64,000 nucleotides of DNA, from contig NC_064551.1 in the NCBI RefSeq assembly GCF_023856365.1, positions 2,312,501 to 2,376,500 on the forward strand, in the 5' to 3' direction. Positions 12,001 through 60,171 of this stretch are shown piece after piece. Every line of letters starts with the position of its first letter. Position 1 is the stretch's first letter. Under the pieces are notes generated by a model. The model had not been told where the DNA came from. It made no database searches and saw only the letters and a program-made list of their open reading frames with translations. The DNA is from Brienomyrus brachyistius (lineage: Eukaryota > Chordata > Actinopteri > Osteoglossiformes > Mormyridae). Position numbers and translations under genes: made by a program.

Positions 12001-14145
12001 TCCTTAGCTACTCCAGAATCTCATCAAGATAATGGTCTCCCAATTGGACTACCAGTTCAGCCTGCGCATAGTGTACCTGTTTGTAATCAGACAGAGGTGG
12101 AGAAGGCTTCACCGGCCACGGTTATGACCAGACATCCCTCGGAGGGGCACGTTGCTACAGTTGATAGTGTCGTAGCGCCCCAGCCTCCGAATGCATTATA
12201 TCCATCTGTCCCCACTTTGCATGCCAAGCAACAGGTAGAGCCGCCTGCCCAGATTTTACCAGCTGGGGCTTCTTTTGCACTTGGAGTCTCTGGGCCTCCC
12301 CAAGGAGATTCTCTGCAGCTTGCAATACAGTCTCCAGACAAGGGGTTTAATGCAATGAAGCCAAAACTGGTCAAAGTTAAAGTTGAAACCCCCAAGAAGA
12401 TTAAAGAGAAGAAGGAGCGAAAACCAGCAGTAAAGAATGGTGAGGTAGATGACAACTTCAGCCCTTACAGACCTTACCGTTGCGTTCACCAGGGATGTAT
12501 GGCAGCGTTCACCATTCAGCATAACTTAATCCTCCACTATAAGGCTGTACATCAGTCTGCTTTGCCTAAATTCGAAGTCAGCAATGATGATGAACATGAT
12601 GACCCATCTGAAGATCACAAAGAAGACTCTGAGGTTGTTCAAGTGAGTGAATTCAGATGTCAGGTTAAAGACTGCTCACGGATATTCCAAGAAGTGACAA
12701 GCTTATTGCAACATTATCTCCAGCTTCACAAATTCACCCTTGATAAAGCGGGCGGCCTGATTTCCAACATAAATCTGGGTAGGTTCCAGTGCGATCAGCC
12801 CGAGTGTACCGCATTTTTCACTGCTTTCTGGAAGTACATTGCCCACATCGAAGAAGCTCACAAGGAGACAAAGTTACCCAAGGTAGAAGCCGTTGAGGGA
12901 TTATTCCGATGTGAGGTCGAAGGTTGCGACCGTGGCTATGCTACACGATCTAACCTGCTGCGTCATACCATGAAGAAACACCAGGACCTTTACAAACTTC
13001 AGCTGATGACACAACGAAAGAATCAGGATAGAGAGAGACAGATCACAAAGAAATCCCAGCCTGGAGTTGATCAAACTAACGACGGGAAAGAAAATATGCA
13101 AAACAACCAAAAATCTATTCAAAAAGGAAACGACAAAAAACGAAATGATGACGTAAAGAATAATCACTGGACAAAGTATGGAAAGCCCTCTTTGAAGTCC
13201 AAAGAGGAAGCCACTGCAATGTGTACAAAGAAATTTCCCCTACAATATCCCTGCATGATAAAGGGCTGTGAATCTGTTGTGAGCTCAGAACGGAACATTT
13301 TAAGGCACTACATTCGGCATGGACTTTCTGAGAGGTACTTAGAGGAGCAGAGAAGCTACTTCATTTTCTGCAAAAAGTCCTCCCGCTCAAAGTGTTGGTC
13401 GCACAGAAGCAGGGCCAAGTTTGAGGATAGCTCCACTGAGACATCAGAGAATGAGGATGCAGAAGAAACTGGTCCTGACATGAGCGAGACCGAGAGCTCG
13501 AAACCCACCTCTGGCAGGGACGAGACGGCGGAGGACACCGAAATGTCCGACGCCAAGCAGTCCACAGATGACAGCTCTGAAACTAAATCTGTCACGTCAT
13601 CAGAGGTAAAGAGAAAGAGGGGGCGGCCTCGCAAGTCCGTCACCGACGAGATTACACCACTTACTCGTAGGAAGGCTTTAGAGAGGTTAAGGTGCACCCG
13701 GAGCAATCCAGTCAACTATGCAGGTAATGGATCTGACTCAACTTCCTCCTCCAGTACGGTTCCAACCAATGAGGAGCAACCTGATCAAAGTATATCGCTG
13801 AGCTCTTTCAAGCCCATGGGCTTCGAAGTGTCCTTCCTGAAGTTCTTGGAGGAATCCACACAATCTGCTCATCCTCCGAAAAGGAAAGCTGGCGAGGTCA
13901 TTGGCAAGATCCCTCTGAAACGGGACAGGACTATTCAGCTGAAAACAGCCACTGTGGTGTGCAAGCGCTCGGATGCGTACGTGCGGCCGAGAGCCGCGCA
14001 AAACTGTATAGACTTCAGAAACCCCCAAAACCTGACTTCGCTGAGAAACGTGAAGATCGTGGTGGACAGTGCTTTCTCTCACGTGGCTGACCTTCTGCTC
14101 AAGCAGCTTCAGGAAATGCGACCTTTGGTGATTCTTCAGAAGTAG
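1..14145 (+). CDS. znf292: znf292, zinc finger protein 292 (5' partial, first exon outside window)
   Basis: Large nuclear C2H2 zinc-finger protein, a DNA-binding transcriptional regulator in vertebrates. Exons read: 400-554, 2718-2796, 3808-3943, 4119-4321, 4828-4964, 5713-5854, 6565-14145; the phases join and give 2810 residues before TAG. The first coding exon must lie upstream. The helical N-terminal region (LEYASRW, DMYCAW, KTVYHILFLIKV) matches ZNF292. The 7.6-kb last exon holds 16 C2H2 fingers. By visible residue, seven lie at about 486-770 (the first begins YCVLC), one near 1057, one near 1459, two from 1934, four from 2255 and one near 2513. An AT-hook-like KRGRPRK sits near 2633. The paralogous alternative RLF is less likely because of the full N-terminal match and the synteny with gjb7 and smim8. 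The last exon is one open frame with no break. Confidence 0.96.
317..395. repeat. (CT)n pyrimidine microsatellite at a znf292 splice acceptor
   Basis: Runs of TCTC interrupted by short C tracts lead directly into the acceptor CAG before the exon at 400, so this length-variable repeat is also the polypyrimidine tract of the intron. The rest of 1-399 is intron in which I see nothing else. Confidence 0.9.
1786..1840. repeat. short tandem repeat, about 20-bp unit
   Basis: Three imperfect units of the type ATGGAGGCAGGCCAGCAG lie in the 2.1-kb znf292 intron 555-2717. I found nothing coding in the remainder of that intron. Confidence 0.6.
3078..3230. repeat. tandem duplication, two copies of about 78 bp
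   Basis: The segment starting CCTGGGGCTTGCAC and running through TAGATGGTCCCTCCTGCTTC occurs twice in direct orientation with a few differences, in the znf292 intron between 2797 and 3807. Confidence 0.8.
3545..3685. repeat. SINE-like fragment with tRNA-type end
   Basis: It contains a motif of the class 'gatttgagccggcaacctt', a degenerate B-box context, and the phrase 'ggttaaggactttgctcag', both seen repeatedly in teleost interspersed repeats. A related fragment lies at 33220-33305 in this window. The family name is not assigned. Confidence 0.5.
4976..5421. repeat. GC-rich minisatellite in znf292 intron
   Basis: About 445 bp built from CCTCTGCCGCCCCGC or CCTCTGCCGCCCTGCCCCG units in variable order. 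The array begins 12 bp after the donor of exon 4828-4964. It creates long open frames in several frames on both strands (AEAGRQRRG-type and ASAALPRLC-type repeats); these are composition artefacts and not genes. Confidence 0.95.
5472..5602. mobile_element. foldback MITE-like element
   Basis: Two long arms are inverted around a short centre: CAGTCCACAGTTTTGCTCC on the left is matched by its exact reverse complement on the right. The outer ends (tttctcaacccagtcc and ggactggattgagg) also pair imperfectly. A partial relative lies near 39625-39715. This suggests a non-autonomous inverted-repeat transposon in the intron before exon 5713; its superfamily is unknown. Confidence 0.75.
5980..6422 (+). 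mobile_element. composite tRNA-derived SINE with target-site duplication
   Basis: The element is bounded by an 11-bp direct repeat GATGTTTACTT at 5969-5979 and 6423-6433. It has a head with box-B-like GGTTCAAACCTC. A second tRNA-like module starts near 6071, with box A-like TGGTGCAGTGG and box B GGGTTCGAGTC. The body carries the phrases 'ttctccccatgtcgtcgtgggg' and 'cctgcgatgggctgg' and ends in a GGATAAGCGG...GGATGGATGG tail. This is a very common teleost SINE type. Related copies lie at 46913-47180 and 52983-53263. Confidence 0.85.
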
Positions 14146-19537: not shown

Positions 19538-21437
19538 ACATGTTAAACGACAATGTAAAAGTCGATGAAGACCAGCGTTCTCAAAGAAACCAGCTCTTAA
19601 AGTGCACTGCATCCCATAATGAAGATGAAACACGATGGAAATTAATGTAAACTTTTTTTTTGTTTAATAGATGGTGAGACAAAACCATGAAGATTCAGAG
19701 TAAAAAGTACCTGCCATTTATTTAAGTTTGTTAGGTGATAGCTTCCTTTGTAAGGAATGATGTGTGTGTGAATGCTGCAAATACCTTTTTCATTTCTCAG
19801 TTATAAGCTAAATAAAAATGGCATACTTTGTGTAAATGATCTGGTTTTTAAGCACGACTGTTTATTGTAAAATTACTGAGCAGCTTTTAAAAAACCATTC
19901 AGGTCTTTCCAGGTGAGAATGTAGTGCTACAGCTGTTTCTGTTATATGGCTGTAAACAATTCCGACTTTATCTATAACCGCTATTTGTCCTTATTTAAAT
20001 ATAGTTTGTAGTTATCAATATCTAACCGTTTTTTTTTTACTTTAGAATGAAAAAAAAAAACATTATGTTTTAAAACAAAGACCAGGATGAGATCACTATT
20101 CTGTGAGTATTGACGCACAGGAGATGGGAAAAAAAACTGGCAAAGTTAGACTACAAAATACAAGTCTTTTTTTTTATCTCGGGGACCGGGCAACTAAACT
20201 GCTGCAAGTGTGGAGAACATCAGCCGAGGTAGCTGCCACGGGAAGGAGGGTCAGAGGTGGAGGAGGGATTTACAGAGAATGATCTACTACAGTTTTATTG
20301 GACTGTCATTTACAATGACAATAAAGAATCTTGATTGTCCTGACTTCACGTTAGGTAAATACTTACTGGCTGCAATTACACGCCACACAGCTATTCAAAA
20401 AAAGTATTTACGGGTGAGTTAATTTATTGTATTCCTGTTTTAATTTAGTTGTTTGTGATTCGGAGTATTGTGGGTGTATAAACGGAACGCTTCACTGCCT
20501 GCTCATACCAAAACTACAGTTGAACGAGTTTCTGTGCAATATGAAGGAGGAGAACATCTTAATTAATCTGGTCCAGCCCCAACGTGTAATTGTGTCTATC
20601 AGGAGTGTAGGTGTGAGAGAGGTGTAGGTTTGGGTACCGTGGCTGTTACGGGGGGGGGGGGTGGACGGTTCGGGGCTGATTTGGCCCCTACCAATGCTGA
20701 ATGCCAACCTACACCCTTGAGAGGTGTTGAGTAAATTAACTCTGTCCAGCTATACTAGGCAAACAGGTCACTAGAGAAGAATCCAGACTGCTGTTACGTC
20801 ATCAGCAACGCAAACTGTATTTCCTTATTATATGTAGAATAATGTAACCAAAAGACTAACAAAACACACAAATATACAGAGTAAGCATTAAAAACTTCTG
20901 CTCACTACAGATTCATTTCATTATTCAAGTTCATCTTTAAAACAACATACAGGAAATCCTCAGATCAGTTCCACGGACTTCGCGAGTTTGCCATAGAACT
21001 GTAATCAGTTGGTTAGTTAATTCTGTGCTTTTATGTTTTAATTTTATTAACAACAATAATACTGAAGGAAATCTGAAGGAAATATTTAAATGAGTGCCCA
21101 GAGCAGAAAGGCGCACCATGCCGCCAGCATCCCCCCCCCGCCACGCCTCCCTCCCCCTTTTGGGATGTTATAAAGCAGTTCGATCCCCCCCCCCCCCCAT
21201 TTAAAGTGTCCATTCAGCCGCACGCTTCGCAGCCCAACTCGCGCAACATGGCGGAGCAGCCGCCGTCCCCCGTCGGACACGCAGACCTGACCCAGGCTTT
21301 TCCCGTAAAATGTGACTGGCGAGGGGGCGGCCGGACCCTTTTCCACGCCTCTTAAATTACACTTTACCGTCGGCACGGCGATTGCGGTGGGAGCCTGTTT
21401 TCCGTTTTGGTAACTTGCGATTGAATACAGTCACACG
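19538..21437. promoter_or_regulatory. spacer and CpG-rich promoter region of the SEC14-actin gene
   Basis: The first 1.5 kb is AT-rich with no gene seen; the C6orf163 orthologue, expected near here from human order, is not recognisable. From about 21180 to 21440 the sequence is CpG-rich and contains AACATGGCGG at 21245-21254, a YY1-type motif often found at start sites. A 35-codon upstream open frame (21248-21355) starts inside that motif. Confidence 0.5.
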
Positions 21438-24400
21438 ATGAGCAGCAACGCGACAGGTAAGAAACTTAAAGCAAGTGTGTTCCGCTGTCAGTAGAGATTT
21501 GCTGTTTGTTACGCCTGCGTATATATTTTTAAAAATTCTTAAACGCATGAAATGTGTTAATTCTAATGCTGAATTAGGCGTCATGCCTGAGTTTGCAGTG
21601 CAGACCGATACCACTGTGTTTCAGCAGGTAAGGGATCGATATTGCTGGTCCCTTCTGGATCCTCCTTCATTATTTAACCCAACGGGAGCCTGTGTTACTG
21701 GGGGAGAAGGCTGTGCTCTTTATTAGCGGGGATCCTGAAAATGTGCTTTGCACGTAAAATATTCTCCAGTATTAATGTTCATTGTGACATGACAGACGCA
21801 TCGCTCTATTACAGTGCTTTATTTCATCCATTTCCTTGCACACTTGTCAGACGTTGTATAACGACGATAAAGTTGGATTGAATTGAATGTTTTTCGAGTT
21901 TTACCAGTCTCCTTTATTTATTTATTTTTTTGTCCTAGCAGAGTTCCGCAAGTCTACCTCCACCCACTCCCTGCCTGCGGATCATGTGCTGTGCTCTGGG
22001 GCAGTCACGTTCCCCGGTATTTTCCCTTTTTTTTTAAAGTTTATTTAGGCACCGTGTATCGTGACGCCATGACCAAGCAATGGAAGATATAACGTGCTTA
22101 CCGCTTTAAAATATCTCTGGCGCTTACAGTTCTTAAGGTTTTCATGCCTATCACCCCTCAGCCACGTTTAAAAGTAAATTAGTAAGCCGTTTCTTGTGTG
22201 TGTGATCTTCCAACAGGTGCCTTTGACCAGCAAGGATGTCCAGTAGTGTTCTTTCCAGTAGCACTGCAAAGCAGGCTAACATCTGACCTGAAAAAGGAGG
22301 AAGTTGTTTATTTCATCAATTACTTTTTGCAGTTGCATAAGTAAGCATTTATTCACCCCGGCATTTGGATAGCTGATGTGGTTCCCTCCCCATGGGTATG
22401 TGGTGCCACTTTTGTGGCTGTCGGTGTCTCCTGCTTGCTTAACTGTCCCCTGTCTTGCAGTAAATACCAGGAGAGGAGCACTCTGCTTTCTGTGGTGGTG
22501 GACTTCAGGAATGCTGCCTTGACCACAGCTAGATTTGTTGCCGAAACTCTTCTGCTCCTGGAGGTGAATTCATGGAATATTTTGCAAGTCATTTCTGTTT
22601 GTCTTATTGCAAGGAACCAAACGCTAAATGCTGTCGTATTGTAATACTTCAATGTGGCATAAAGGAATAGAGTCCTGCACACACACTAACTGTGCATCAT
22701 TTAAACCTCTCAGTAGTTAATTTCAGGACACTGGTGTATTAATGAAAGCCTTTTATGTGGCCTGCTATTTTTGTAGTGGATATCGGAGCTCCCAGTAGAT
22801 TAGCTAGTGTAAACCTTTTTTGTTGGATTAATGTTTTTCTCCCAAATATTCTCTTTCAATTAGTTTCCCCCCCCCCAAGTTTAGTCTGATTATCTGCTTT
22901 GCAGACTGGAATCTTGGGGGAGGGGGGGAATGTGATGGTTTGGTTTGCCGACATCCTGTTGAAGACAGGCCCGACGTAGCAGGGTTGATCACAAGACACT
23001 GCATGTTTTAATATAGCGCAGCCAGTTCAAGAATTTGCCTGTGAACTTCTACAGACATTTCTAAATCTGATTATATAATTTAGCTGGCATTTCCACATGG
23101 TTAAAGCCCTCCTTTTCTGATGTGTGTGGGAAGTCGTTCTTTGGTGCATCGGTCCTGGTTTGATAAAGAGAACTGCAGTCCTGGGCGGTACTGATGATGA
23201 TGATGAGGATGGAGAGAAGAATGAGAATTTAATTATCACATGCCCAGAGTCAAGGTCACATGCTTTCAGTATAAACCATCATGCGATTAGTTATCTTCCA
23301 GTGGATCTCCTCAAAAATGTGCAGGCGGTGTTGAGGTTAATAATAGGGCTCTAACTCTTTGTGGACTCCACGTAACCTTCCTGTGGGTTGGGGGTCCTTT
23401 TGACTGGATGTGCCTCTGCGGAAGTATGTGGCCAGCTGTGCGCACAAATGTCAGAAACGATCACCAAGCGAGAGAGAGTGTGCGCTGACCTTGGTTCCGT
23501 GTCCCTCCAGCTGCCCCAGAGAACCGTTCATACACTCTATGTGGTTCAGCCCAAAAAGAGAGATGTGCTGAAGTTACTGCTGAAACTGCTGATGTCAGGT
23601 CACGCGAAGACTGGAAGCTCCGCCCCCTTTAAGGTAATGTTCACCTCCGCGGTAAAATCGAGGGCTCCTTAGAATCACAGCCGTAATGCATGCAAATGTG
23701 TCCTCCCACGCTGCATGTTCATGGCTTCGCTTGGTAAGTCTTCCTTTATATCCTTACAGAGTGTTTTTCTGAAAGAAGTTTTTGAACTCTATAACTACAT
23801 TGATCGGAGCCAATTAACACCGGAACTGGGCGGTTACCTTGTTTACTGTCATCAAAGCTGGGTAACGTTTTTAAAGGTAATCTTCTTCTTTTTTTTTTGT
23901 AGTTTTAAGAATGCATCTGCGGGGGGGTTACTGTCATAAGTCGTACCTGATTTGCTCATCTATCTTCCAAATTCTTATCCTGGAGAGCATCATGGGGGCC
24001 GATAGGTTACACCCTGAATGGGTCGCCGGTCCATCTCTGGGATTCCACACTGTTAGCCTGCTGCGTGTGTTTGAACTGCTGTGTTGCGATCGTAGGCTAT
24101 TTTGTTTTGGATGCGTCACATGTGAGATGCTTCTTGTTCGAATTGATTTCCATCACAGCTGTTGCTTCCGGCCTGTTATCCATGTTACCCCCGTTATCCG
24201 TTACCTTGGAGAAGCTCTCCCACTTGAGGTCTCCCATCTGACCTCATTAGCAGCTGAAAGACTGAAGCCCCTTCTCTGTTTGATCATGTCTGCGTTGTTA
24301 GGCAGGCTGCTCTCAGAAAGTGCACTCTCCATCGGACGTGTTCCCCAGCTGATGTAAAAGGCTGAATTATTCACAAGATCACAGTTCGTCTTGACAGCCC

Positions 24401-27400
24401 TGTGTCAAAATAAGCCATATAACGTTATGGCTGCTATTCTACTGACGACTAGCAGATTATTAATTAAATTTCACTCCAAGTGCATCTCGCTAATCTTCAT
24501 TTTCGGGAGATGCCTTTTGTTGTACGTATGGATAAGTTGTAGGTCGTTGACTGCAGCGGGGGAGGGATTTAATTAGGGGTGATTTGTCTCTGTCTGTCTG
24601 AAAGTTGCAGGCTGTCTTTCTATCTCCAGGAGATCGATGGATTTGTCCAGGAGTTTCTGTCGGTGGTGCACCGGCTCCCATCCTGCATCGCTACCCTGCA
24701 CACACTCTCCCGTCAGGCCGTGCCTGCAAGTGTCAAGGAGCTGAAGGACTTTTGCTCAGCAAACGAAGCCAGATTTCAGCAGCTGCAGAGGTGACACTTG
24801 GCAGTGCACACAGTGGCGTTTTTAATACTGGTGGGCCTTAACCGATATATCGAGGCCTTGTGAATTTATTCAGTGTCTCCCCCCAAGAGCACTGGCCTAT
24901 ACTGAACCTAATGTAATGCATGTTGAACTGCAGACTTTGATGTGATTTCAGCTTTTAAAACGATTTACTGTAAAACCCCACCTTATGCTTTAAGACATCG
25001 AACGATAGTCAAAACCCCTAAGTGTGGTCATGTTAGACGGTAGACCATGACATGGTGTTAATTTATAGTGGATACCAAAGGGCTTCGGTGGTAGTGTGGC
25101 TGTATGATGGTGCAGATGGTGGCTGTCGCCCTTTTCTGCAGGGAACTCGGTCTGGATGATCTGCTGAGACACTGTGAGCAGATAGTGGAAAAGCTGCGGT
25201 TCCCTGAGAACGAGCCCTGCTACCAGGACATGGCAGGAACGGCGCTCTTCACTCACACGGCGTACGACATGCTGCAGAATTACAACAGGTGTGGTGTGAT
25301 GGCACGTCGTATCGGAACCGAAGCGGGGAGGAACGTGAGGGTGCAAGGAAGGTACAGCCTGTCTCCCGTCTCCCGGGACTGAAGTGGCCGCCTTCTTCTC
25401 CAAAGGATCACGGCCGCTGTGGAGAAGGTGGACCTGCTGTGGCAGCAGGCATTCTCCCGAGCCCATCTTCAGCTGCGGATTCTGCAGCTGCGTGACGAAG
25501 CCAAGCAGGTCGTGTGATCGGCGACTGATTGGGGCTTGTGGGGAATAGCATGAGTGCTTGTCCATTCATCTTGGGTAACGCGATCTGTACTAAAATAGCC
25601 AGTAACCAGTTTAGTTAAATTGTGCCCAAAAGGCAAATAATCCAGATTTTAAATGTTAGTGAAGCTTCCAGAAGCTTTAATTGCCAAAAAATATTGCAAA
25701 TTAAATGAACATTCTCCATTAGATTGTATGGGGATTCTAAAACTCGGCAGTCCAAAGTTTTCCGTACTCTTTTCAAATACTGAGATCCCTGAACCTGACT
25801 TTACTAATTTTCTAACCTGTCAGCTGTGTAGATGTTTTCCTAGAGCCACGTCCAGTTTTTGACCCGTTTCCTGCTCCTGTAACAGATTATTGACCTGATG
25901 GACAAAACCACACAGGAGAAGCTCCAACCGTACAGAATCGAGATGGCCAAGGATGCGGAAAAAGCCCAGAGTCTGAAGGCAGACTTTGAGACGTCGGTCT
26001 ACAGACCTGCCATGGTGTGGTCAATGTCTGCCACTTTAGAGCTTCAGGACTTCTTATTAATATTCATATTTAAAAATCAGTCTGGCAAATGCATCCAAAA
26101 CTGTTTGTGAATCTCTTCACTAGGCCCTTGTGCACCGAGCCGATGATGTGCTTCGCATGTTGGCGGAGAGCATGTCTCCTGTGGAGATCCAAGCCCATGG
26201 AGAGTGGATCATGCAACTTGACCGTGTGAAGGAGAAGTTCTTGGCTGCTCTGGATTTGCCATACCAGACACTAAAAGCTGTCTCTGATTTCTACTATTAC
26301 TACAACAAAGTAGGTATCTCCTGGTTTTGGATATCACTGGGTGTTATCTCCTTTAGATAGACCTAAGCTTTCAAACCTCAGTTGTTACTGAATCACGTTT
26401 TTTGCCATTAGTGTCTGTATTAACTGTTCTGACATGAGCTGTATCTTATGAAAATCCTAATTGTGCTATTTGTTTTGCTACCTGAACTACAGTCGAAAAC
26501 TTGGTACGACGTCGTTCTGTGCGAGAACTTTTTCCAAGACCTTCTCTGGAACGGCACCCAGGACAGTATCCCTAAGCTTCACTGCCTGCGGGTGATGAGG
26601 GCCAGTAGGACCCCACCTTGGAAGCAAGCGGTCTGCGACTTCCTGAAGAAGAATCCACCTCCAGAGATGGAGGAGCTCGTTCAGTTAGCTCACCTCGCCA
26701 ATGTCATTTCAGACCCTCACCTTCAGCAGAATGGAAGGTGGCTTTCTCATAGGTGGGTCGCTTTTTGAAGAGCTCGGAATTTAGGCTCTGGTTATTTAAA
26801 TAGGCAAAGTTTATATATAACCATGATGCAGCCAGTAACTGAAATTGGTGACTTCTGCAGGTGTATGATTCTCAGGAAGCTGCTGACCTCGCCGGGTGCT
26901 GTAGCGCTAAATGACCTTCAGGTGGCGCTGCAGTGGCAGTATGAGTTTCTCAGGGGCACTCAGAGGGATCTGGCTCATGTTGACTCTGTAAGCGCAGGAC
27001 AGTCTGAGAAAATGAACTGTGCAGAAAGCACATGCTGTCACCTGGGAGAGATCCGAGGTTCTGGTTCCATGCTGGATGTGCACAGCAGGCCCATCTATGA
27101 AGGCCTGTCTAATGGTACCAGACTGAATCCTGGGAGAGAGGGACTGTTGCCCCATCAGCCTCTTGCAGGCTTGGGTCAAGGGATGGTACATAGTTCTGGA
27201 AAACCTCACTCCCTCAGCTCCTTTGATTCTGGATTCGATGGAGCTGGAAGCACCCACACGGATGTGGTGGTGCGGAGAGAGAGCTGGGGTGCCAAGGAGG
27301 CCTTCCGGCCTGTCGATCGACAGCCCCGCATCCACGAGGAGAACATTTCCAGTGTGTCGGATTCCGAGGAACGCGAGGAGTTCGAGTTTGCCCGCGTGGG

Positions 27401-30400
27401 CGGCACCTCGAACGCCAGCATCCAGGTCATTCCGAAGATAACGGTGGATTCTCTCAACGTTGAAATAAAAGTGAAGCGTCGTGCAACGTTGCCCAAAAAT
27501 CCCTGGCTTAGTTTGCCCGTGGAAGACCTTGAGAACTCCTACACGGTCACCATCGCGCCCAGTGCAGAGGATTCACATCCAACGGGTGTCATCCAGTCTC
27601 AGGACCAGCCCAGTCGGACTGAGATTTGTGAAAGTTCTCCGACGTCCACGGCAGAGGAGCAGCGGACTGCCTCGTTTGGTACAGGGGAGACGCCGGCGAG
27701 AACAGACATCCTGCAAACACAGGACAGTTTTGACGATTCTGGATCCAGCCTTCGTTACAATCTCTTGTCTAGCACCATAACGGACGCACAGGAAAAGGCC
27801 GACGACTCGACTGACAGCTTTCCGTCTCTCCTCTGGGACACGTATGACTTTCACAACACTAAACAAGATTCCAGTGAAAGGTAACCTTCATACTTAGGTG
27901 CTGTGAACTCGCATGATTTAATTAACTAACCCCTAGTTTGCTGCAGGTTGGTTAACAGTCTGGACGATGTATCTCTGAATGACTGGGACCTTAAAGAGCA
28001 AGAAGGACTGCAGGAGGTTGAAACAATACTTGACCGGACAGCTGAAATACTACAGGCAAGTTCCGATGTCCTACAGCGGTTGTGGGTTGTTTGGTGCCCT
28101 GTGTTACCCAAGATCCCTTTTGTAAGCATTTCATTTGCATTCCAGGAAGAAGAAAATGTTCTTGCCCAGGAGGAGATTTTGGATCTTCTGCTGAAAACTG
28201 AAAGCAGCAGCAGGCAATGGGTCATGTCTGAGTGTGAAGACCAGCCCAGAGCAGTAATGTCAAATCCCCTCTAACATCAGCATATACGTCTTCTGAATAT
28301 ACCAGCCATTACCATTTAAGAAACTACCTCCTTGTATTAGAAACCTTATGGAAATTCATGGTAGCATTTCACGGCTCCAGGGATAACTCGCAATTAACTA
28401 CAACCCTTGCAGTCACTGGTGGTATTTGTCAGTGTGTCAGGAAAGTTTGCTCTAAGGTGGTCAATGTCTGTTAATGCGGTCTTCTGGTTGTCTTGAGTTT
28501 TACACCTGTAAGCCCTGATTTTGTCCTAATAATCCATAACATATGGTGATTGTATACATTGGGTAAATATAAACTGTAGGAAGCTGTTATTCAGATTCTG
28601 TTACAATGTGGAAGAGACCATTTTGAAATGTGGAAGCCAATGAACTTGGAGAAAAGGGTAACGATGGAAGCTGATGTGTTTAATGAAGTCTGTCTTTGCA
28701 GGTGGCCGTGCTGTCCAGAGACCTGCTGGAAGCTGGTGTCGAATTTGACGATAGTTGCTTCACCTGTTCTGATGAACGTGCAGACTATGGCTCCTGTCCC
28801 TGTGCACGTGTAGTGAGTGATGATGGTGACCTCAGACAAAGTGATGCTCAAGGGGTGTCTGAAATCGGTAAACAAATTGGAAGATGTGATCTACTTGAAG
28901 AGCTGAGAGGCCTCCGTGTTCTGGAGGAGCAGATTATGGAGGAGAACCTGAAGATCCGTGAACTGCGGCTGTCTGAGGAGACTGAGGTTGTGACTGAAGA
29001 GCAGTTGGACCAAAGCGCCGTACAGACCTCAAATCAGGAGAGGGAGGTCTTTCTGCAAGAGCAGGATAAGAAGCAAGAGGTGGAGAAAGTGAATCTCAGG
29101 AATGAGACTGCAAAGGAGAACCTTAAGGACAGGTTACATAGTGGTAGGAAAGTCATCAGGTGTTCAGTGATGGACGGAACCTTCACAACAAAGCAGGATA
29201 GCACCCTGTGTGACGATCTCCTGTCAGCCTGTAAGAAGCAGCTTCCTGACGATGAGCATTTGAACACGGCTCAGCATTTGAATGAGCACTTCTCTGAAAC
29301 AGATGGTGTTACACTAAGATGGAATAATCAGGACGGCGCCGATCGCACTGGCGTGTCCCCGGACGACGACCTTGGAATGGACAGGCCTATTAATGATGAC
29401 ATCAAAATGTCTGCTTATCTGGGCGTCCTGTGTGACAAAATGGACTCCGTTATCTCATTGAGCAGCCCTACTTCTGGTGTTTGCAGCCCCAAAATGAGTG
29501 CGCTCGGAAATGACCGGAAAGGAATTCAGAGATTTTTGGGATCCGAGGGACCCAACTTGGATGAGGACAAAGGATCAGCATCTTTACAGTTAGGGCAGTT
29601 GCCCTTGGAGGAGAGCGACAGTCAGCTTGTAGGCAGGGTAGGGTCTTTGAATTCAGAGCCCCCTCTGAACCCAGGCCCACATCTCAGCCCTGAGGGTGAG
29701 ACAGTGATGCCCCCAGTGCCAAAGCCAAGAAAGACGACCTGGCTCTGCAAACCTGACGGTAATCAAAGTGCTTCTGAAGGGGAACCAAAAAGCAATGCGC
29801 CTGGATGCCGGCAGGACAGCCCTGAACCTGGCTTAAGGCAGCAGCCTGGAACTCCTCCGAAGCCGAAAGCGAGAAGAAACAAACCTGCAACTGCCGCAGC
29901 AATCGCATGTCCAGAGGACAACATCAGCAACAGCAATAACAATAACGACCTACGTCTAACGGAAAGCCTCGGCCTGCAGGGGGCGCCACCGAACACCGTG
30001 GTTCCAGATGAATCCAGTTCTGAGGACCCAGATATGCCGACCGCATGCAGCATCCCGAGTGGCTCGGGGAAAGAGCCGGGATTGGACTGTGAGGAGGGGG
30101 GATTAGGACTCGGCCCCCCGGGGATGCATCTGTCCCCCGACAGACTAATGGAGCAGGAAGATCCATCTAGCAGCAGGCTGCTGTACGTGGTGCAGGGGAG
30201 CAGCCAGTGTTGCAGGTCCCCAGTCAGCACGGTCAGTCTGCACAGCACAGCAGAGGTAGGATGTGATTCCAGCCCCTTTAGCGTAACACAAGGCTAATGA
30301 ATGGTGTTAACTGCCCCAGTGGATGCTTTTTGTGGGCAGTGGGGGCTTAATGGTTAGGGAAGTACGCTTGTAATTGAAAGATTGCCCCGTTTTAGCGGAG

Positions 30401-33400
30401 GCCCCTGGGCTGCGGCTTGGGTGAGCCTGTGCATTAAAGCAGCCCTGAATCTCACCTGGTTTTACCAGGCATTAATGAGGTAAATAAGGCTACATCCCAC
30501 TCCCACTGCCAGTTTTTCATTAAAATCAGTCATCTTTGGTGTATGTCCAAACGGCCTCTTGTGGCAAACCCTACAGCTCCATCCACAATCGCAGGAAAGT
30601 GGGTTTTGCTTTCATTTATAGATTTATGGATTCAAGACTCCAGTAGTGCTGGACACTGGGTCTGGACTGATGAAGGCAGGCTTTGCAGATCAGGACCTCC
30701 CAACGGCCGTGTTTCCAACTGTTATCGGGGTCCCCAAGTATGAGGTATGAAGATTTGCCTGTTTGATAACCCCTGAATTACATTAACCAGGAAAAATCAA
30801 AGTTCACACCACTGTCCAGAATGCGGACCGAACCACAAGTTAATCCAACCCAGCTGATAATGCACCTTCTGAACCAATATGGTCACCATAAAAAGGTTTA
30901 ATGTGGTTTGAAGTACAAAAAATACAACAGCATATACTCATGACTTACCATAACCCCCCCTCCAAAGACAGTTAAAATGGTTAGCGAGCGTTACTGTAAA
31001 AAGTGACTCTCATGACGTCGTCCTAACCGCACACGCCACGGCTAAGCTAAGCTTGGCCAGTATTTTATCCCCCACGTTAAAATTTGTCAGCGATAAATTT
31101 CACCAAACAAAAATACTGCAATATACCCAAAACACCATGGTATACTGTGTGACTGTAATACTGTCCAAACCTAGGGAACATTATCGGAATGAAATGCACT
31201 GTGAAAGTTTATTCTGCAGGGAGGCACAATAATCACTCATTTTATTTGCCTGTATCTACTGCTGATTCTATACTGTTGTGCATTTGACAAACTTTGATTA
31301 TATCAGTGTTTCTGTAGTGCTAAGTTGGTTAACGTCATTACAAATTCTTCAGTACAGGATGCTGTTAATCAGTCTAATCTTGACTGATTAGTCTCGACTG
31401 ATTGGTCAGCGTGGTATTTGGTCTCGACTGATTGGTCAGCGTGGTATTTGGTCTCGACTGACTGGTCAGCGTGGTATTTGCGGTATTAATGTAGGTTTGG
31501 CTGCAATTGCAGGAGGTCATGAATTGGTGTGGAGAACGAGAGACTTACATTGGACATGAGGCACAGCACATGCGCGGGGTTCTGGCCCTGAGGTACCCCA
31601 TGAAGCATGGCATTGTACAGAACTGGGATGAGATGGAGAAGGTAAGCGGATCCGTGCGAGAGGAAGAGCGCTTCCATATGTGTGATGATGGCTCCGCATG
31701 TCTGTCACAGTCCCAGCCTGCGAGGAACAGCTGGCCGTTCTCCAAGGGTCTTAAAGGGGGTTCACTTCCCTGAAACAAGCACTGAAGACCCTCTGAAACA
31801 TAGCTATCCGTTTAGGTTTAAAGACCACAGAAAAAAATGCCATTCATCCCCATTATATCCGAGTGAAGCCTGGGGTTTTTATGGCCGACGTTGTGCTGGG
31901 AGTTGCCAATCTAGATACACAGAGAGCACTAAAGTCCCTCTAAAATGTATCCTGCTCCAGTTTTGGGGTGACCTGCCCCTTTAATCCCTGCTCTGCCTTC
32001 AGATTTGGCAGCACGCTTTCCAGCAGCTGTGTGTGGCCCCTGAGGACCACCCGGTGCTCCTGACCGAGGCAGCTATGAGTCCCCTTGAGAACCGGCAGCG
32101 GATGGTGGAGCTGATGTTCGAGGCCTTCTGCGTCCCCTACACCTACGTGGCCATGCAGGCCGTGCTGGCGCTCTACGCCGCGGGGAAGACCACCGGTGCG
32201 TTCTGCCGGACACACCTACAGGCCATCTGCCACACGTTTGACCTTTTGCTGAAGATCTCAAACGGTAGCTTCGATTCCAGTGGTGTTAGCTGCACTAGCA
32301 GGACTGTGCTAACGTTCTATGGCACTGCAGCTTTCCATCTATTACCATAACGTAGACTGCCTTGCCTGGCAGCACGATGCCACTGTTCGGCCCTTCAGCG
32401 AGGCCCTTAACTCCAGTTGCTCCTGGAACACTGCTCCCTGATCCCCATTTGTATGTCACTCGGGTTTCTGCTAAATGTTTTGTTTTTTTAGAGTCCTGCC
32501 ACCTAGTGGTGGGCTTGCAGAGTAGCGCTATGTAAACATTTTTCTTCCTTCTGCTGAAGGTGTGGTGTTCGACTCTGGGGATGGAGTGAGTCACAGTGTT
32601 CCAGTGTTTGAGGGCTACTGCCTCCCGCACGCAGTGCAGCGCTTCACCCTGGCTGGTGCTGATGTCACACTCCACCTCAGAAAGGTAGACTTGCCCCCTG
32701 ATTTGGGTTCATTACAAAATTTGGTCGCACTTCGCTGTTTCCCTTGCAGATTTCGTCAGCAGCCACAAAACGTAGCTATTCTCTTCTTTTCGTGGATTTT
32801 GTTCTTTAAAATTCCCAAAAAAAAAACGTGCTTTGACGCAAGTTGCATCAGCGAGGATGTTTTTGAAGTTGCTGCAGGAGCGAGGCGTCACCATGAACAC
32901 GTCCGCCGAGCTGGAGATCGTGCGGGAGGTGAAGGAGCAGTGTTGCTATGTGGCCCGGGACTACGAGGCGGAGATCTCCCGCGTGATGATGTCGCCCGAT
33001 GACGGCGTATCTTACACTATGCCTGATGGCCGGGTCGTGTCCATTGGAGCGGAACGGTTCAGGTAGCGATCAGGTTCTCCGGCCCTGATTAGACCCCTTC
33101 TACAGCTGATTGGTGAATAGGGAAAGTAAAGATTTACGTTCTCATGTTTAATGACGTACAGTTTAGAAAGCAGGGCATAGACGTCCCTGGAGCAAGTGCA
33201 CTTTAAGAGCCGTTCTTTGGGGGGGGCACAGTGACATCACTCTGCCGACCCCTGGGATTTGAACCGACAACCTTCCAGTCACAGGGACACTAACCCTAAC
33301 TCTCCAAGTATGGCACTAGCAAAAGCAGACGTGACTTTACCTTGTATGCATAGTCCGGTTCAACATCTCTTTGTGCCAGTGATATGACTCCAGCTTCCCA

Positions 33401-34470
33401 TTTGGAAATTTGCTCTAACGCTGTCGTTCTGTTTATTGAAGGGCACCAGAAATTCTCTTCAGGCCGGAGCTGATCGGGCGGGATCACTATGGCGTGCACG
33501 AGAGTATTTTCAAATCCATCCTGCACTCTGATATCGATCTACGGAAAAGCTTCGTAGGGAACATAGTCTTATCAGGTAAAGTACTGAACTGCTAAAGACT
33601 GATCCACACATCTCTGCAGAAGTGTAACACTCGCATGTCCATTTCTCTGTTTTAAAAATTCAGACAGCCAGCTCGCTTTGGTCAGCTGGCTGGCGTGAGA
33701 TACTCAATTCGGGACAAGTCTGCAGGCTCACACACACACTCACACACACACTCACACACACACTCACACACACACTCACACACACACTCACACACACACT
33801 CACACACACTCACACGCATTTACATGTATGTAACTAACAGTTTTATTACCTTGTAAATGGTCTGTAGGGTTTTCAAACTACCCCAACACTTGTCCAAAAC
33901 ATCCATGTTGGTGTTTAAACTGGATGCTAGTGAATCGATCATGTGCAGTGTGTTTGGAATGCAGTGGCCATTTGTCACTGTGCACCTCCGCGAACATCAA
34001 ACGCATCATAAATCATGTATGTGTACGTGGAAGTATGAACCAGCCTTCACAGTGCTCACATCATAACTAACCAGATACGTTAGACGGCTCCGTAGTACGT
34101 TTTGAAATTTTAAAACCGAAACAGGCATGTAGCCTTTGGAAAATGCCCTTAAGTACCTGTGATGTTCATTGATTTAAAAAATCTGAATCGGATCGTTGTC
34201 TTTAATTTCTCGTATCTTTTAATGTCTGGCGGCACAGGAGGGAACACCCTGCTGGCTGGTTTACCCCTGCGTCTACAGAGTGAGATCAGGAGTTTGGTAC
34301 CAGAGGACCTTGTCCAGTGTGTCCGGGTCACGAGCCCAGCAGACAGGGACTCTTCCGTGTGGACAGGGGGCGCTGTGCTGGCCAGCCTGCCCTCCTTCGG
34401 CTCTGCCTGGATCAGCCAAGAGGAATACGAGGAATTTGGTCCCCAGATCGTTTTCAGGAAGTGTTTCTGA
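21438..34470 (+). CDS. SEC14-like / spectrin-like / actin chimeric protein (1797 aa)
   Basis: Unnamed. Exons: 21438-21456, 22217-22340, 22461-22563, 23511-23633, 23760-23876, 24630-24790, 25142-25288, 25406-25508, 25886-26014, 26124-26309, 26493-26752, 26861-27880, 27947-28055 (GC donor), 28146-28253, 28702-30255, 30622-30744, 31513-31641, 32003-32195, 32560-32684, 32869-33062, 33442-33575, 34238-34470; all phases agree. Residues about 8-160 are SEC14-like ([22 protein letters not shown]), so lipid binding is possible. Residues about 163-520 are spectrin-like helices. The linker to 1421 is disordered, with [28 protein letters not shown], coiled coil near 940-1010 and proline-basic PVPKPRK. 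Residues 1422-1797 are a full actin domain from [15 protein letters not shown] to IVFRKCF. The N-terminal half resembles PLEKHG4/KIAA1755/MCF2-type proteins, without a visible DH-PH. Possible role: membrane-linked cytoskeletal scaffold (inference). Two adjacent genes remain possible but unlikely. Confidence 0.85.
30338..30490 (+). repeat. SINE-like remnant in the intron before the first actin exon
   Basis: The phrase 'taatggttagggaagtacgc' followed by 'aattgaaagattgcc' is a degenerate tRNA-type head of a common teleost SINE. It fills much of the 366-bp intron 30256-30621 that joins the linker exon to the first actin exon. Confidence 0.5.
31391..31480. repeat. 30-bp tandem repeat, three copies
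   Basis: Three consecutive 30-bp units beginning GTCTCGACTGATTGGTCAGC lie just upstream of the acceptor of exon 31513; the last unit differs at one base. Confidence 0.9.
32350..32480. repeat. SINE-tail-like fragment
   Basis: 'gaggcccttaactccagttg' and the ending '...gtatgtcactcgggtttctg ctaaatg' resemble the 3' body and tail of widespread teleost SINEs. It lies in the intron between actin-domain exons 32003 and 32560. Confidence 0.5.
33220..33305. repeat. SINE-like fragment related to 3545-3685
   Basis: It shares the 'gtgacatcactctg...gatttgaaccgacaaccttcc' arrangement with the fragment in the znf292 intron. It lies in the intron 33063-33441 of the SEC14-actin gene. Confidence 0.5.
33728..33816. 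repeat. (CACACACACT)n microsatellite
   Basis: About nine 10-bp units of CACACACACT lie in the intron between the last two coding exons of the SEC14-actin gene. Confidence 0.95.
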
Positions 34471-35925
34471 ACAGCATAGCCCTCCTGTTTGCCCAGAAAT
34501 TGTTTCCTCAGTTCAAGTGCAATAGCCCTCAGGCCAAGTTTTTAAAGCAAAGCTTTTAAATTGTGCGGAACCAGTGTTTGGACAGTTCAGTTAACACTGT
34601 GAGCAAAGTTTTACATTAGTGCCTCGAGTGCTAGAATAGCCCGGATCGGGGATATTAAATAAAATAGCCTTGAGGTATTGAACACATATAATCCTATAAA
34701 ACTGAACTGATTAGCTCCTCTAAAGTCCAATTTGGTGTTTGTGCCACACTAATACTTCATGAGCAGTACGCGATACTTATTTAAAGGCTTTTCAGACGCA
34801 CTCACTGAGCACTTGGGGTATTTAACACTTTTGGGCTGAGCTACAGTGTTAAACCTCCTCAACGTTTAGCTCAGAAAGGTACTGATTTCATTCCATACGC
34901 CCCTTTGACTATGGGACTGCTGGATAAGTGCATATGGGGTTGATTGTCGAACAGTGGGGGTCACTTGGCCATACCAAGGACTAGATTGGTTTAAAATGTT
35001 TGTATATTTATATATATATTTTTTATTACAGTGTGTGTGTGTTTTACTGATGCTGCTTACGGTGGTAGCTGAACTATTTCTAGGCTGGAAGGTGTTAACT
35101 CGTACCATTAACATCTGTTTTGGTTTGGTTTACTGGGTAATTATTCGTAACTTATTAACGCAGTACATATTCTCTGTATTTCAAAAATCCTCTTTGAGTT
35201 GCAGCTTAGTCTGTGGTGCATTTTCTGACTGGATTTTCCATTTTTTACATAATGTTTGGTTTTCAGCATTTGCGACAGTAGAATTGGGGTTTTTTGGTAA
35301 TAGGTAGGTACTTCTAATATACTAGAACCTGAAACTTTGTACATCTTTTTGCCAAAATGACACATTTTACTGTGAATCAATGGCCCTTTCAGCAGTATTT
35401 ACTTACCCCTGTACTCACTGAAGTTTTTTTTCTTTATCTTTCGGTGCTGGCACTGACTTGGCTTTGAATATGTTTCGTAACTCTGTCTCAGGTCTTACCA
35501 AGAAATCATCAGATTACATTTTATGTAGAGTGACACAAAGTCTCTTAGCAGTGGAAGTAATTGATTTAGTGAAAACGCCAGCACTGCTGGGCTGAATCTC
35601 CTTTCCCCACAGACGTGTTTGCTTTGCTCGACTGAAATGTCATTTGTTTGTTTACCTTTTTTATAATAAAATATTTTAAGCACCTTGCTGGTTTTCTTGC
35701 ACTGCATGGCAATATGCAAATAGTACACTTGCATGTCCCACATCGACTGTGAAATTGGCTTGCTACGTCGCAGGCACAACGATAATGTGGGTTTCCCCAG
35801 GACAAGTGTGTCAAATTCCAGTCTTGGGGGGGGGGGGGCCTGCTCATTTTTGGGTTCCCCCTCATATGCATGGTACGGCTGCGTTAAAAAACTGCGTTTA
35901 AAGATCCGCAGCGCTCTGTTGTCAG
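34471..35925. other. 3' UTR of the SEC14-actin gene and spacer
   Basis: AATAAA at 34658-34663, 188 bp after the stop, is a likely polyadenylation signal. The remainder is AT-rich with a G tract near 35827; I see no coding region. Confidence 0.6.
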
Positions 35926-35939
35926 GTCACCATAGCAAC
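35926..35939 (+). promoter_or_regulatory. X-box (RFX-binding motif) upstream of cfap206
   Basis: GTCACCATAGCAAC fits the ciliary X-box form, two half-sites (GTCACC and AGCAAC) separated by AT. It ends about 160 bp before the cfap206 start codon. RFX factors use such sites to drive motile-cilia genes, which fits the product. The motif is seen directly; its use is inferred. Confidence 0.7.
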
Positions 35940-36100
35940 CGTGCGGAGAAACCTGGCTTTACAGGGGGGGAATCGTAGTTTGTGTGTAAATTAGGGAAAA
36001 GTTAAGATCTGTTTCTCTCTTAGTTGAAACGTGTCAGCTTTTCTCTGAAGCGCACGCGTCATTTTGCTTCCAACTATTAGCCTGGCGTTTCAACGCGAAG

Positions 36101-39100
36101 ATGTCGTATCCTCCAGCTGGAAATATCATAAAGAGTATTATTCGCGAAGTTGTCAAAGAATGCCTTGCTAAGGGCCAAAGCATATCAGAAACTTTAGCTA
36201 CCTTTATGGTAAGTGATACATGTATAGATACTTTGCACTTTCGCTCGGTAAGTTGTTTGTCGTCAAAAAAAATTTGCTGTGTATATATTTGTTTTTAGGT
36301 AAAAGCTGTTGTTTTAGATCCACAAAACCAATTCAACGTTGATCGGACTATTACAAAGCAAGACGTCCAAGAAGTAATCGAGGTACAGTAGATGCACAAA
36401 ACCAATTTATTTTGATATAAAAAATATGAAATTAGTTTACTGGTGTAACGTTTTTACATGATTAACCTGTACTCGTCACAGAGATGCGTGCAGCGGCTTC
36501 TGGACCTGCAAAGCCCTTCTGTGGACACCATCAAAATGCAGGCTTATTTTGACATGCATTACACCTCCCGACGTGAGTAGGGATTACCGTGGACCTCTCA
36601 CCAGAATTTAAGTTGAAGGCAATATAGGTGCCAACTTAATAATGTATTTCCCTAAATCCTACATTGCGTCATGTTTTATTTTAATGCTGCCTTCAGAGGA
36701 GTACCTGAAAGAGCACAGGCGCGTGCTGCAGGCTCAGCTGATCCCGATCACTCGCGAGATCACCGACAGCCGAGCCAAGTCCCGTGACGAGCTGGAAACC
36801 CTTTACGGCAAGATCGCCAGCTATGTCCTGCTACGCTCCGGAATGGGCTCACCTACAGACATCAGCACTGTGCGAGAGGCCGCTGGTAGACGCTTCACCC
36901 TTACAGTCCCACATCTCAGTCTATGGAGGATTTGAAGTAGAATTAGTGTTCTGCGTGAAGTATCCATAAACTGTAAAATAAAAGACTCATTCAGTTTTAT
37001 CAACATTACCTACAATAATAACAAAAATGATCTAAACTAATTTGGTTATTTGTTAAATACCAACAAAACTTGGAAGTACATTATCAGACAGCAGCCTTGA
37101 TACCTGACATGATTTTAACTTTAGTCCCTGCTCACTCCTGTGACTTCCTCTGTGTATGTGTCCGTCCGTCCGTCCGTCCTTTAGCCGCCCTGCACAGCGT
37201 CTTCCCCCAGCCTGAGCTGGGCGTCTTCATACCCCTCAGCAGGAAGGACAAGGAGCAGCAGCTGGAGCTGCTCAGCAGGCTGGTCACTGGGATCCGACTC
37301 TTCAACAGGGACAGGAGAAAGGGAGGAGACAGCATCGATGACTGTGAGTTCCCGAAACAAGGCTGACGTCGTGGTTTGCAAGACGAAGGACACGAGGGCA
37401 GCTGTTAAGTAAAGAAAAAGGGGCTTTATTGAACGGAACAGGAGCGGGGATACAAATCAGACTGCGAGGGGTCAAAACGGGGACATTAGAATGGGTTAGG
37501 GCACAGGCAGCCAGAGGACTGACACCAATGACCGACTGGGGAACCAAAAAGCACTTATACACAGGACTAACAAAGGGCTGACACAAGGCAGATGTGGACA
37601 GTTAGCACAATAGGACTGGGGATAACAAGTAAGACACAATTAGGGAGAATTAGAAGAGATCCGGAAGACCAGCAGCAACCCCTACTGGTCATACTGGGGG
37701 ATGGACCAGACATGTCGTGACAGTTGAAGATACACTTATGGCGCTAATATTTGTATGCCCATGTCAATAAAGTACTTATATTACAGCTTATGAAGGTCAC
37801 ACTGGAGTATGATGTAGTTCTACAGGCTTTCATGTCTAGCAAGTTTGCGGACTGAACGTTCCAGGCTGTTTTTAGCGTCAACTTGAAAATACATTAGCAA
37901 TGAACTTTGAACCATCTCACCAAGAGGAAGCAGTAATGCACTGAGAATGGTATTTGATATTGACACCCAGCATATAGTAGAAGTGAAGTTCATCAGCACA
38001 ACTCACAGACACGCTGCTTCACTGATGTCTCGTGTGAAACATGCTTCTCCTTTCTAAGTGGTCTCTTCTTTCTTCTTCAGTGCCAGCCATCTTGAATGAG
38101 TCCATCTCCACCAGCATCGAGCACATTAAATTCGAAGCTGGTGCATCTCAGAACCTGGCTTACCGGTACATAGCTCTGCTGGAGGGTTTGCAGGCCACCG
38201 AGCTCGTTCTCAAGGACGGCAACGTGCCACCTAAATTTCTGAAGGAAGCACTGTACAATGCTCGACAACACGAGACCTTCTTGCGACTCATTTTGGTGAG
38301 ATAAATTACGTCATGGAGTTATGTGAAATTAATTGTATTCATAAAGGTGATAAATTATATTGGAATGTTTAGTAAAATAAGTAAATTTGACGTAGTTATA
38401 ATGAGCATTGTAAAACAAACTCATGCTCCAAGAATATATCCATGTTCAAATGATCTTGGAGGGAATGTATCGCGAATCTGCCCGTAGGCGGATGTTAGGG
38501 TGTGTGAAGAGCAAACACGATCCCTGCAGTCAGAGCTGCACTCCCAGATGGAGGAGCTGAAGATCATTGTCCATTCAAAGACTGCAGTTCCCACAGCCCA
38601 GGTTTTCGTAAGCATCTTGCCTTGACTTTTCTGCAGTAAATTGCTCCTGTACAGCCACTGGCTCACAGGAAGCGGCAGATTTATCGGTGACTAGTGGCAC
38701 CTTCTCCCTCAGCCCCATTTCACCGCTCTGGCCAAGCTGTGGTCAGGACTTCAAGATGAGATGCACCTGCTGAGTATTCTCAACAGCATGGTGGCCAACC
38801 TTCAGCCCTTCCTGGGTGCTCAGTCATGGCAACTACCAAAGGATCAGCTGGAGATCTTTCTGGAGGGTGTGGAGGTGAAGACTGATGAGCAGAGAATGAA
38901 AGAATCTGCAGGTGCCTTCACTTCATATGAACTTTGACCCCCCGAGATGGTCATTACCCTCTAAAATCTCACTCCATTCGTTACTCCCCTCTGCAACACT
39001 GTACTCTCATTAACGATGTAAATGCTGTGGCCAGTAAATGAGTAACCAGAGTAACCAAACATTTACAAGTCAAACACAAGTTCTGGCAGCTTGTCTAAGG

Positions 39101-44900: not shown

Positions 44901-44998
44901 GAACCCCTGGCTGGGCTTCTTGGCCATCGCGGTAGCTGTGCTGTGTTCTGGTTTTGCAGGTAACTGGGGCTCTGTGTTTGCATTTCATAGCAGTGTTT

Positions 44999-45048
<50 letters not shown>

Positions 45049-59185: not shown

Positions 59186-59466
59186 TGCAACTCCACCCAA
59201 TCAGACGTGAAGACGACAAACGCCCAGCAACTCCACCCAATCAGACGTGAAGACGACAAACGCCCAGCAACTCCACCCAATCAGACGTGAAGACGACAAA
59301 CGCCCAGCAACTCCACCCAATCAGACGTGAAGACGACAAACGCCCAGCAACTCCACCCAATCAGACGTGAAGACGACAAACGCCCAGCAACTCCACCCAA
59401 TCAGACGTGAAGACGACAAACGCCCAGCAACTCCACCCAATCAGACGTGAAGACAAACACCCAGCA
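59186..59466. repeat. 40-bp minisatellite, seven copies
   Basis: Six nearly identical 40-bp units starting GCAACTCCACCCAATCAGAC are followed by a shortened seventh unit. Each unit carries one CCAATCA (CCAAT box) element. It lies downstream of akirin2, next to its probable polyadenylation signal TTTATT at 59490-59495 (minus strand). Confidence 0.97.
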
Positions 59467-60171
59467 ACTTCAGAACTTAATGTAAACATTTTATTTGGTT
59501 TTTCCCTCATTACGCTACACGGGCAGTGACGGTGTACTGTGAATAAAAACTGAAAAATACTGAAAATAAATAAAAACTAAATCTTTAAAAATACTTAAAA
59601 ACGTATGCATGTATCAACTTAAGCAATCTGAACATGACATGGCCCACATGCATAAATCCCTGGGATGCAGTGCGGCAGACCAGAGCGATCCGCATTAAGC
59701 CCTGGTCACGTGACCAAGCCACCAGTATCCCGATGTAGATGCACTGATCTGGAAAAATAACTGATTCATGTTTGTCGCACCACACACAAAGAAACCCTAA
59801 AATTTATAAACTGGTGAATTGGGGAGCGTCAGACGTTCTTTAAAAAAAAAAAAAAAAAAAAACACTACAGAGAAAGAGAGAAAAAAGCCGCTAAGACGAA
59901 TACAGCGAGTGGATGGTGAGGCTGCTGGTACAGTGAAGGCAGCAGAGGTCCTCGTTCACAGCAGGGACGCGCTCCCAGCCGGCTGTTGGAGACAGAGTGG
60001 TTGCTACTGGCAAAGCCTCGAAACGGCTCGTGCCCACAGGAGATATGCCATGGCTACAAGTCTGACTCAAATCAGCCGAGTCCCTGCAGATGCCACCAGC
60101 AGAGTCGATTTGACAGCTCGCGGTGACCGAAGGGGGAGACTGGCACCCCCCCGCCAAAGCAGGCGCTTCAC

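Follow-up and report, generated by a model that had tools for sequence, protein, structure and literature searches.

We analysed a stretch of 64,000 nucleotides from the mormyrid fish Brienomyrus brachyistius (NC_064551.1, positions 2,312,501 to 2,376,500), hereafter the window, in which a gene on the plus strand, at 21438-34470, appears to join a SEC14-like N-terminal part to an actin domain. All coordinates refer to the window. The gene model was made from the genomic sequence of this one genome, with the exons spliced by hand. The spliced frame was open from the ATG at 21438 to the stop codon ending at 34470, and consisted of 23 exons, all in phase, with 1822 codons plus the stop. The rebuilt frame thus agreed with the single in-phase frame of a first-pass annotation of the same DNA. 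The 22 exons and 1797 codons counted there equal the present model minus exon 2. The best explanation of the product is a layout with a SEC14-like region (approximately residues 30-190), a helix-rich region (190-567), a long linker, polar and carrying proline motifs (568-1446), and a complete but divergent actin domain, probably ATP-binding (1447-1822).

In a Pfam scan of the 1822-residue product (E values up to 10, HMMER filters dropping most matches above E ~0.1), the sole match above its cut-off was Actin PF00022, with 379.7 bits against a cut-off of 27. It spanned residues 1452-1822 and positions 5-410 of the 410 in the profile. The full actin domain was encoded by the last seven exons (17-23), without a stop or frameshift. 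These were exon 17 (30622-30744), the first actin exon; exons 18 (31513-31641) and 19 (32003-32195); exon 20 (32560-32684), with the second phosphate loop; exons 21 (32869-33062) and 22 (33442-33575); and exon 23 (34238-34470), with the actin C-terminus (RKCF) and the stop. Overlapping poly(A)-type signals, ATTAAA and AATAAA, were present on the same strand 3' of the actin stop (34654-34663).

The joining of exons 16 and 17 is what makes this a fusion. Exon 17 begins with ATT TAT GGA in phase 0, after the GCA GAG that ends exon 16, also in phase 0. Its sole in-frame ATG is codon 17, located after the LDTGSG motif, and the codon directly upstream of the exon is TAG, therefore exon 17 needs an upstream exon. 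The splice sites were scored by a simple table of weights and ranked against all GT or AG sites of the window. On this scale, the exon 16 donor reached the 98.3rd percentile and the exon 17 acceptor the 99.4th. By an ungapped count in the pairwise alignment, exon 17 opens with a codon (ATT) at the Met1 position of beta-actin, 10 codons before the D11 equivalent. Because of the TAG before exon 17, the late ATG and the strong junction sites, the best reading is one gene with the actin domain at its C-terminal end, and we consider this single-gene reading highly probable, with exons 16 and 17 presumably joined in the RNA. The start of exon 17, including the missing ATG ahead of LDTGSG, was as the first-pass annotation had described it, and its view of the actin part as the C-terminal domain of the upstream gene is also the best reading of the sequence here.

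Several features of the junction speak against this reading. Translation continuing past the exon 16 donor stays open for 13 codons (30256-30297, plus strand) and ends with a TAA at 30295. Together with ATTAAA at 30433 and 30519, this makes a short form without actin possible. Intron 16 (366 bp) also holds seven ATGs, five of which have at least one phase-0 GT in the same intron, the best of these donors being at the 94.6th percentile (GT at 30353, for the ATG at 30323 or 30350). In addition, a multiple alignment including Arp1 gave the opening residues of exon 17 another position than the pairwise alignment did.

These features could be accommodated by two genes, a SEC14-like gene ending with the TAA at 30295, and an actin-like gene with its first coding exon hidden in the intron or in exon 16. 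The read-through stop and the ATTAAA motifs would then close the first gene, and either of the ATGs paired with the GT at 30353 could give a start to the second. Such pairs are nevertheless common by chance. When 500 random segments of 366 bp were drawn from the window, with exons among them, 168 also had an ATG with a phase-0 donor at a score threshold of 5, so that the pair in intron 16 is no evidence of a separate start. At a threshold of 7, there was none in intron 16, compared with 66 of the 500 random stretches. Moreover, the 3' end of one gene and the promoter and first exon of the other would all have to fit into 366 bp unless they overlap exon 16, and vertebrate actins are known to have their ATG in the same exon as the phosphate loop. 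The CpG ratio was 0.34 and 0.38 in the 500-base segments starting at 30251 and 30501. Two separate genes are thus very unlikely in our judgment.

A single gene could also give two products, the long actin fusion and a short SEC14-like protein of 1459 residues, the latter through retention of intron 16. This would be compatible with the fusion gene as the best explanation. The 13 open codons beyond the exon 16 donor, the TAA after them and the ATTAAA at 30433 and 30519 fit the short product, but both junction splice sites are strong and the intron has no AATAAA. The AATAAA motifs in the scanned region (26000-37000) were at 27464 (inside exon 13), 34658, 35665 and 36977. We regard the production of both forms as somewhat unlikely.

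Upstream of the junction, the single-gene model comprised 16 exons. Exon 1 (21438-21456; residues 1-7) carries the start codon, preceded by an in-frame TAA. Exon 2 (21942-22016; residues 7-32) has 75 nt, or 25 codons, and is phase-neutral (phase 1 in and out). Its acceptor ranked at the 99.6th percentile and its donor at the 86th, and with such sites and a neutral phase it may be an optional exon. The SEC14-like region is spread over exons 3 (22217-22340), 4 (22461-22563) and 5 (23511-23633), and ends in exon 6 (23760-23876), which aligns with the Sec14 domain of Kalirin. The helix-rich region follows in exons 7 (24630-24790), 8 (25142-25288), 9 (25406-25508), 10 (25886-26014), 11 (26124-26309) and 12 (26493-26752). 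It ends in exon 13 (26861-27880), which then passes into the polar linker and is open for ~340 codons. The linker continues in exons 14 (27947-28055) and 15 (28146-28253), and in exon 16 (28702-30255), which has the motifs PPVPKPRK and PPKPKARR and is open for 518 codons. Given the base composition, the chance of such open frames is 5.3e-7 for exon 13 and 2.5e-11 for exon 16. The other five frames had 2 to 19 stops each in exon 13 and 9 to 47 in exon 16, while the coding frame was stop-free.

With respect to the splice sites of the whole gene, 20 of the 22 donors were above the 85th percentile, the GC donor of exon 14 being scored on the same table, and 19 of the 22 acceptors were above the 90th. 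The remaining sites are the weaker points of the model. The donors of exon 9 (65.0th percentile) and exon 15 (66.3rd) were weak, the acceptors of exon 21 (53.5th), exon 12 (75.2nd) and exon 23 (84.7th) were weaker than the others, and the intron after exon 14 (28056-28145) is of the GC-AG type. For exon 21, another AG was seen by eye 9 bases downstream of the acceptor, and its use would keep the frame. The CpG ratio at the gene start was 0.97-0.98 (two 500-base segments, from 21001 and 21251). As a promoter mark this is weak: the start region stands out, yet some segments in coding exons pass the CpG island threshold too. A short ATG-started frame of 35 codons, also noticed by eye, precedes the main start on the plus strand (21248-21355) and is a possible upstream open reading frame.

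The gene is flanked by genes on the same strand. Upstream is a ZNF292-like zinc-finger exon (6538-14139), stop-free for 2534 codons and recognized by the Pfam models for a ZN292-like zinc finger and for the Rlf TPR. Downstream, ~1.6 kb after the actin stop, are the first exons of a CFAP206-like gene (36101-37340). In the PDB it matched CFAP206 alone when E was limited to 0.001 (E 2.9e-6, a modest 30.7 bits), and in Pfam it had only a THP2 match, below the cut-off. SLC35A1-like exons follow at 43651-46169, with a match to the CMP-sialic acid transporter (E 1.1e-23) and to the Pfam nucleotide-sugar transporter model. We take ZNF292-CFAP206-SLC35A1 to be the gene order on human chromosome 6q. A mis-joined assembly, in which an actin gene was set behind an unrelated gene, is highly improbable, given that the exons on either side of the junction agree in phase and have good splice sites there, and that the gene sits between neighbors in this presumed order.

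A few other features were recognized in the window. The sole Rfam match was to 5S rRNA (48775-48890, plus strand; 47 bits, gathering threshold 38), possibly a 5S pseudogene or a short interspersed element (SINE) derived from 5S. Minisatellites with 19-bp and 40-bp units were found at 4973-5410 and 59187-59469, respectively. Two short plus-strand frames (6011-6235 and 52979-53242) are probably a dispersed repeat, because they share an 18-residue stretch.

Returning to the actin domain of the fusion gene, its identity was 52.4% to human beta-actin (ACTB), 47.0% to Arp1 (ACTR1A) and, against provisional comparison sequences, 42.5% to Arp2 and 39.6% to ARPT2. Actin also came first in phmmer, with 458.8 bits versus 389.9 for Arp1. 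A PDB actin was matched with 462 bits, and the best 60 of 166 PDB matches were all named actins. Six introns interrupt the domain, at beta-actin codons 41/42, 84/85, 150, 191/192, 256 and 301. The first three presumably match sites of vertebrate muscle-type actins, and the last three, by the same assumption, do not. Among prokaryote genome contigs, the actin part gave two weak matches from eight pattern matches, at 33% (query residues 308-376) and 25% (82-279) identity. In NCBIfam nothing but stray models and those of prokaryote actin-like proteins came up for it, all with scores far under the cut-off.

We compared residues listed for the nucleotide site and the two filament faces. The nucleotide site was identical to ACTB at 19 of the 25 listed positions, the same count as in human Arp1, and was conserved above the rest of the actin domain (Fisher P = 0.02, uncorrected). 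The six residues that differ lie in the first phosphate loop (N12T, M16L) and on the adenine side (T303N, M305L, Y306L, K336D). Q137 and H161 were intact. On these residues, the domain likely binds ATP.

Several changes argue against ordinary polymerisation. R183, outside the nucleotide-site list, is replaced by A, and Y306 and K336 are changed. Only 3 of 13 positions were kept in the D-loop (P = 0.044, uncorrected) and 3 of 11 in the hydrophobic plug. The domain thus differs from a conventional actin, with its high identity and its standard D-loop and plug. Ordinary filament growth or free co-polymerisation of the actin part is uncertain, because so little of the D-loop is kept even though the nucleotide site largely is. 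The divergence could also be that of a remnant, in decay or without function, which the scaffold carries and which has no role at filaments. The 52% identity to beta-actin and the poorly kept D-loop would agree with a remnant, but seven exons have neither a stop nor a frameshift, and the nucleotide-site residues are better kept than the domain elsewhere, in the same number as in the working human Arp1. We assign a remnant a low probability.

The filament faces were less informative. In the actin part, 19 of 31 barbed-face and 14 of 35 pointed-face positions were kept, neither significant. Among the controls, Arp1 kept 23/31 barbed (P = 0.023) and 15/35 pointed positions, and ARPT2 kept 19/31 and 10/35 (P = 0.020 for the latter). 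Arp2, a genuine part of a nucleator, kept 13/31 and 12/35, without a pattern. Therefore, the face test is no evidence for nucleation, and a comparison of barbed- and pointed-face conservation was rejected as support for a nucleator. The N-terminus of actin lies on the outside of the filament and N-terminal tags are tolerated, therefore a subunit tethered at this end is physically possible.

At the other end of the protein, the SEC14-like region was recognized with lower scores. CRAL_TRIO_2 matched residues 38-179 with 18.6 bits (E 0.0026) against a cut-off of 23, and CRAL_TRIO reached 16.5 bits (E 0.0079) against 22.6. No CRAL_TRIO_N, RhoGEF, PH or ankyrin match was listed in the scan of the full product, under the filters named above. 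Residues 1-568 had only two PDB matches with an E value of 10 or less, of which the Sec14 domain of Kalirin was the better (E = 0.032). The N-terminus is likely, though weakly, SEC14-like, as judged from these matches. KIAA1755, brought up as a relative in the first-pass annotation, may resemble the present protein in its domains, as may the zebrafish orthologues of KIAA1755 (quo, si:dkey-65j6.2), but no account of their domains was found in the accessible text of PMC7367351. The amphipathic-helix signal, measured against 200 shuffles, was z = 3.1 for residues 190-567, z = 2.3 for the linker part 568-928 and z = -0.7 for exon 16, and the part encoded by exons 13-16 was polar. Spectrin-like repeats after the SEC14 region are no more than plausible. 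The SEC14 matches below their cut-offs and the lack of a Spectrin match in the Pfam scan of the product weigh against the proposed N-terminal layout. Thus, from the SEC14, spectrin and actin domains proposed in the first-pass annotation, actin was recovered in full, SEC14 at scores under the cut-off, and spectrin without a profile match. For 557 residues of the N-terminal part there was no family in NCBIfam, and no relative among viral contigs (two pattern matches, zero confirmed).

To our knowledge, few natural proteins have an actin as C-terminal domain. The POTE-actins (POTEE, POTEF and relatives) of primates are described as chimeras with a retroposed actin (PMC7073761). They resemble the present protein in having an N-terminal scaffold, a predicted helical, spectrin-like segment and an in-frame C-terminal actin. 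They differ in their ankyrin repeats and retroposed beta-actin copy, in contrast to the SEC14-like region, the unmatched ankyrin and the divergent actin with six introns found here. The actin domain of POTEF was assayed for binding to the chaperonin CCT (PMC8292509). The filactin of Dictyostelium is likewise presented as conventional actin, extended by a long stretch at its N-terminus (PMC2441452). The long extension is shared; the filactin actin is reported to be extremely homologous to conventional actin, whereas here the identity to ACTB is 52.4%. Conventional actin and Arp1 share the full-length actin domain, but the one found here has no start codon of its own, forms the C-terminal part of a large protein and has a poorly kept D-loop.

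For the N-terminal part, the closest comparison is the SecSR class (Kalirin, TRIO, MCF2, MCF2L, MCF2L2 and SESTD1), which has a SEC14 domain without CRAL_TRIO_N, followed by spectrin-like repeats; SESTD1 is also without a RhoGEF domain (PMC9823006 for both). The likeness lies in the weakly SEC14-like N-terminus without CRAL_TRIO_N, the helix-rich region next to it and Kalirin Sec14 as the better of the two PDB matches. The difference lies in the RhoGEF and PH domains, unmatched here in the Pfam scan, and in the C-terminal actin domain. KIAA1755 and PLEKHG4 did not occur in the accessible text of PMC9823006. No SEC14-actin fusion was described in the literature found, a small test on titles and abstract openings with subscription papers mostly outside its reach, and it is quite possible that other annotations list the gene with some neutral name. 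Nothing found contradicted the earlier claim that no SEC14-spectrin protein ends in actin. Fusions with actin at the C-terminus, however, are already known as a class from the POTE-actins and filactin. What would be new is the different partner and the divergent, intron-bearing actin.

Such a gene most likely originated when a SEC14-like scaffold gene came to be spliced into the first coding exon of a neighboring, intron-bearing actin-type gene, the upstream splice replacing the actin start codon. For the account as a whole, with one gene, the domains listed and this origin, and leaving the mechanism aside, we see about an even chance, on genomic sequence. As to mechanism, the N-terminal part would target the protein to membranes or bring it to Rho regulators, in the manner of the SecSR proteins. 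The actin domain, tethered at its N-terminus, would dock on filaments or on actin-binding partners, and act as an anchoring subunit or a cap, not as a bulk filament subunit. Taken alone, this mechanism, with its predicted lipid and filament binding, is a tentative possibility. The lipid-binding scaffold that caps, nucleates or co-polymerises, as proposed in the first-pass annotation, is likewise inference only. A bolder version is that an animal, probably vertebrate, lineage has evolved and retained a protein that is bound to the membrane and, from there, seeds or caps filaments through an actin-like subunit of its own. The scaffold would then be the first subunit of the filament, with the barbed face kept and the D-loop face changed. 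We consider this version distinctly unlikely.

Should RNA show exons 16 and 17 to be joined, the gene would be an unusual tie of a cytoskeleton building block to a scaffold. If expressed and conserved, it would stand as an animal case beside the primate POTE-actins, one that arose not by retroposition but through splicing into an actin-type gene with introns. It would then also allow a direct test of how filaments at a membrane respond to a scaffold that carries an actin-like subunit.

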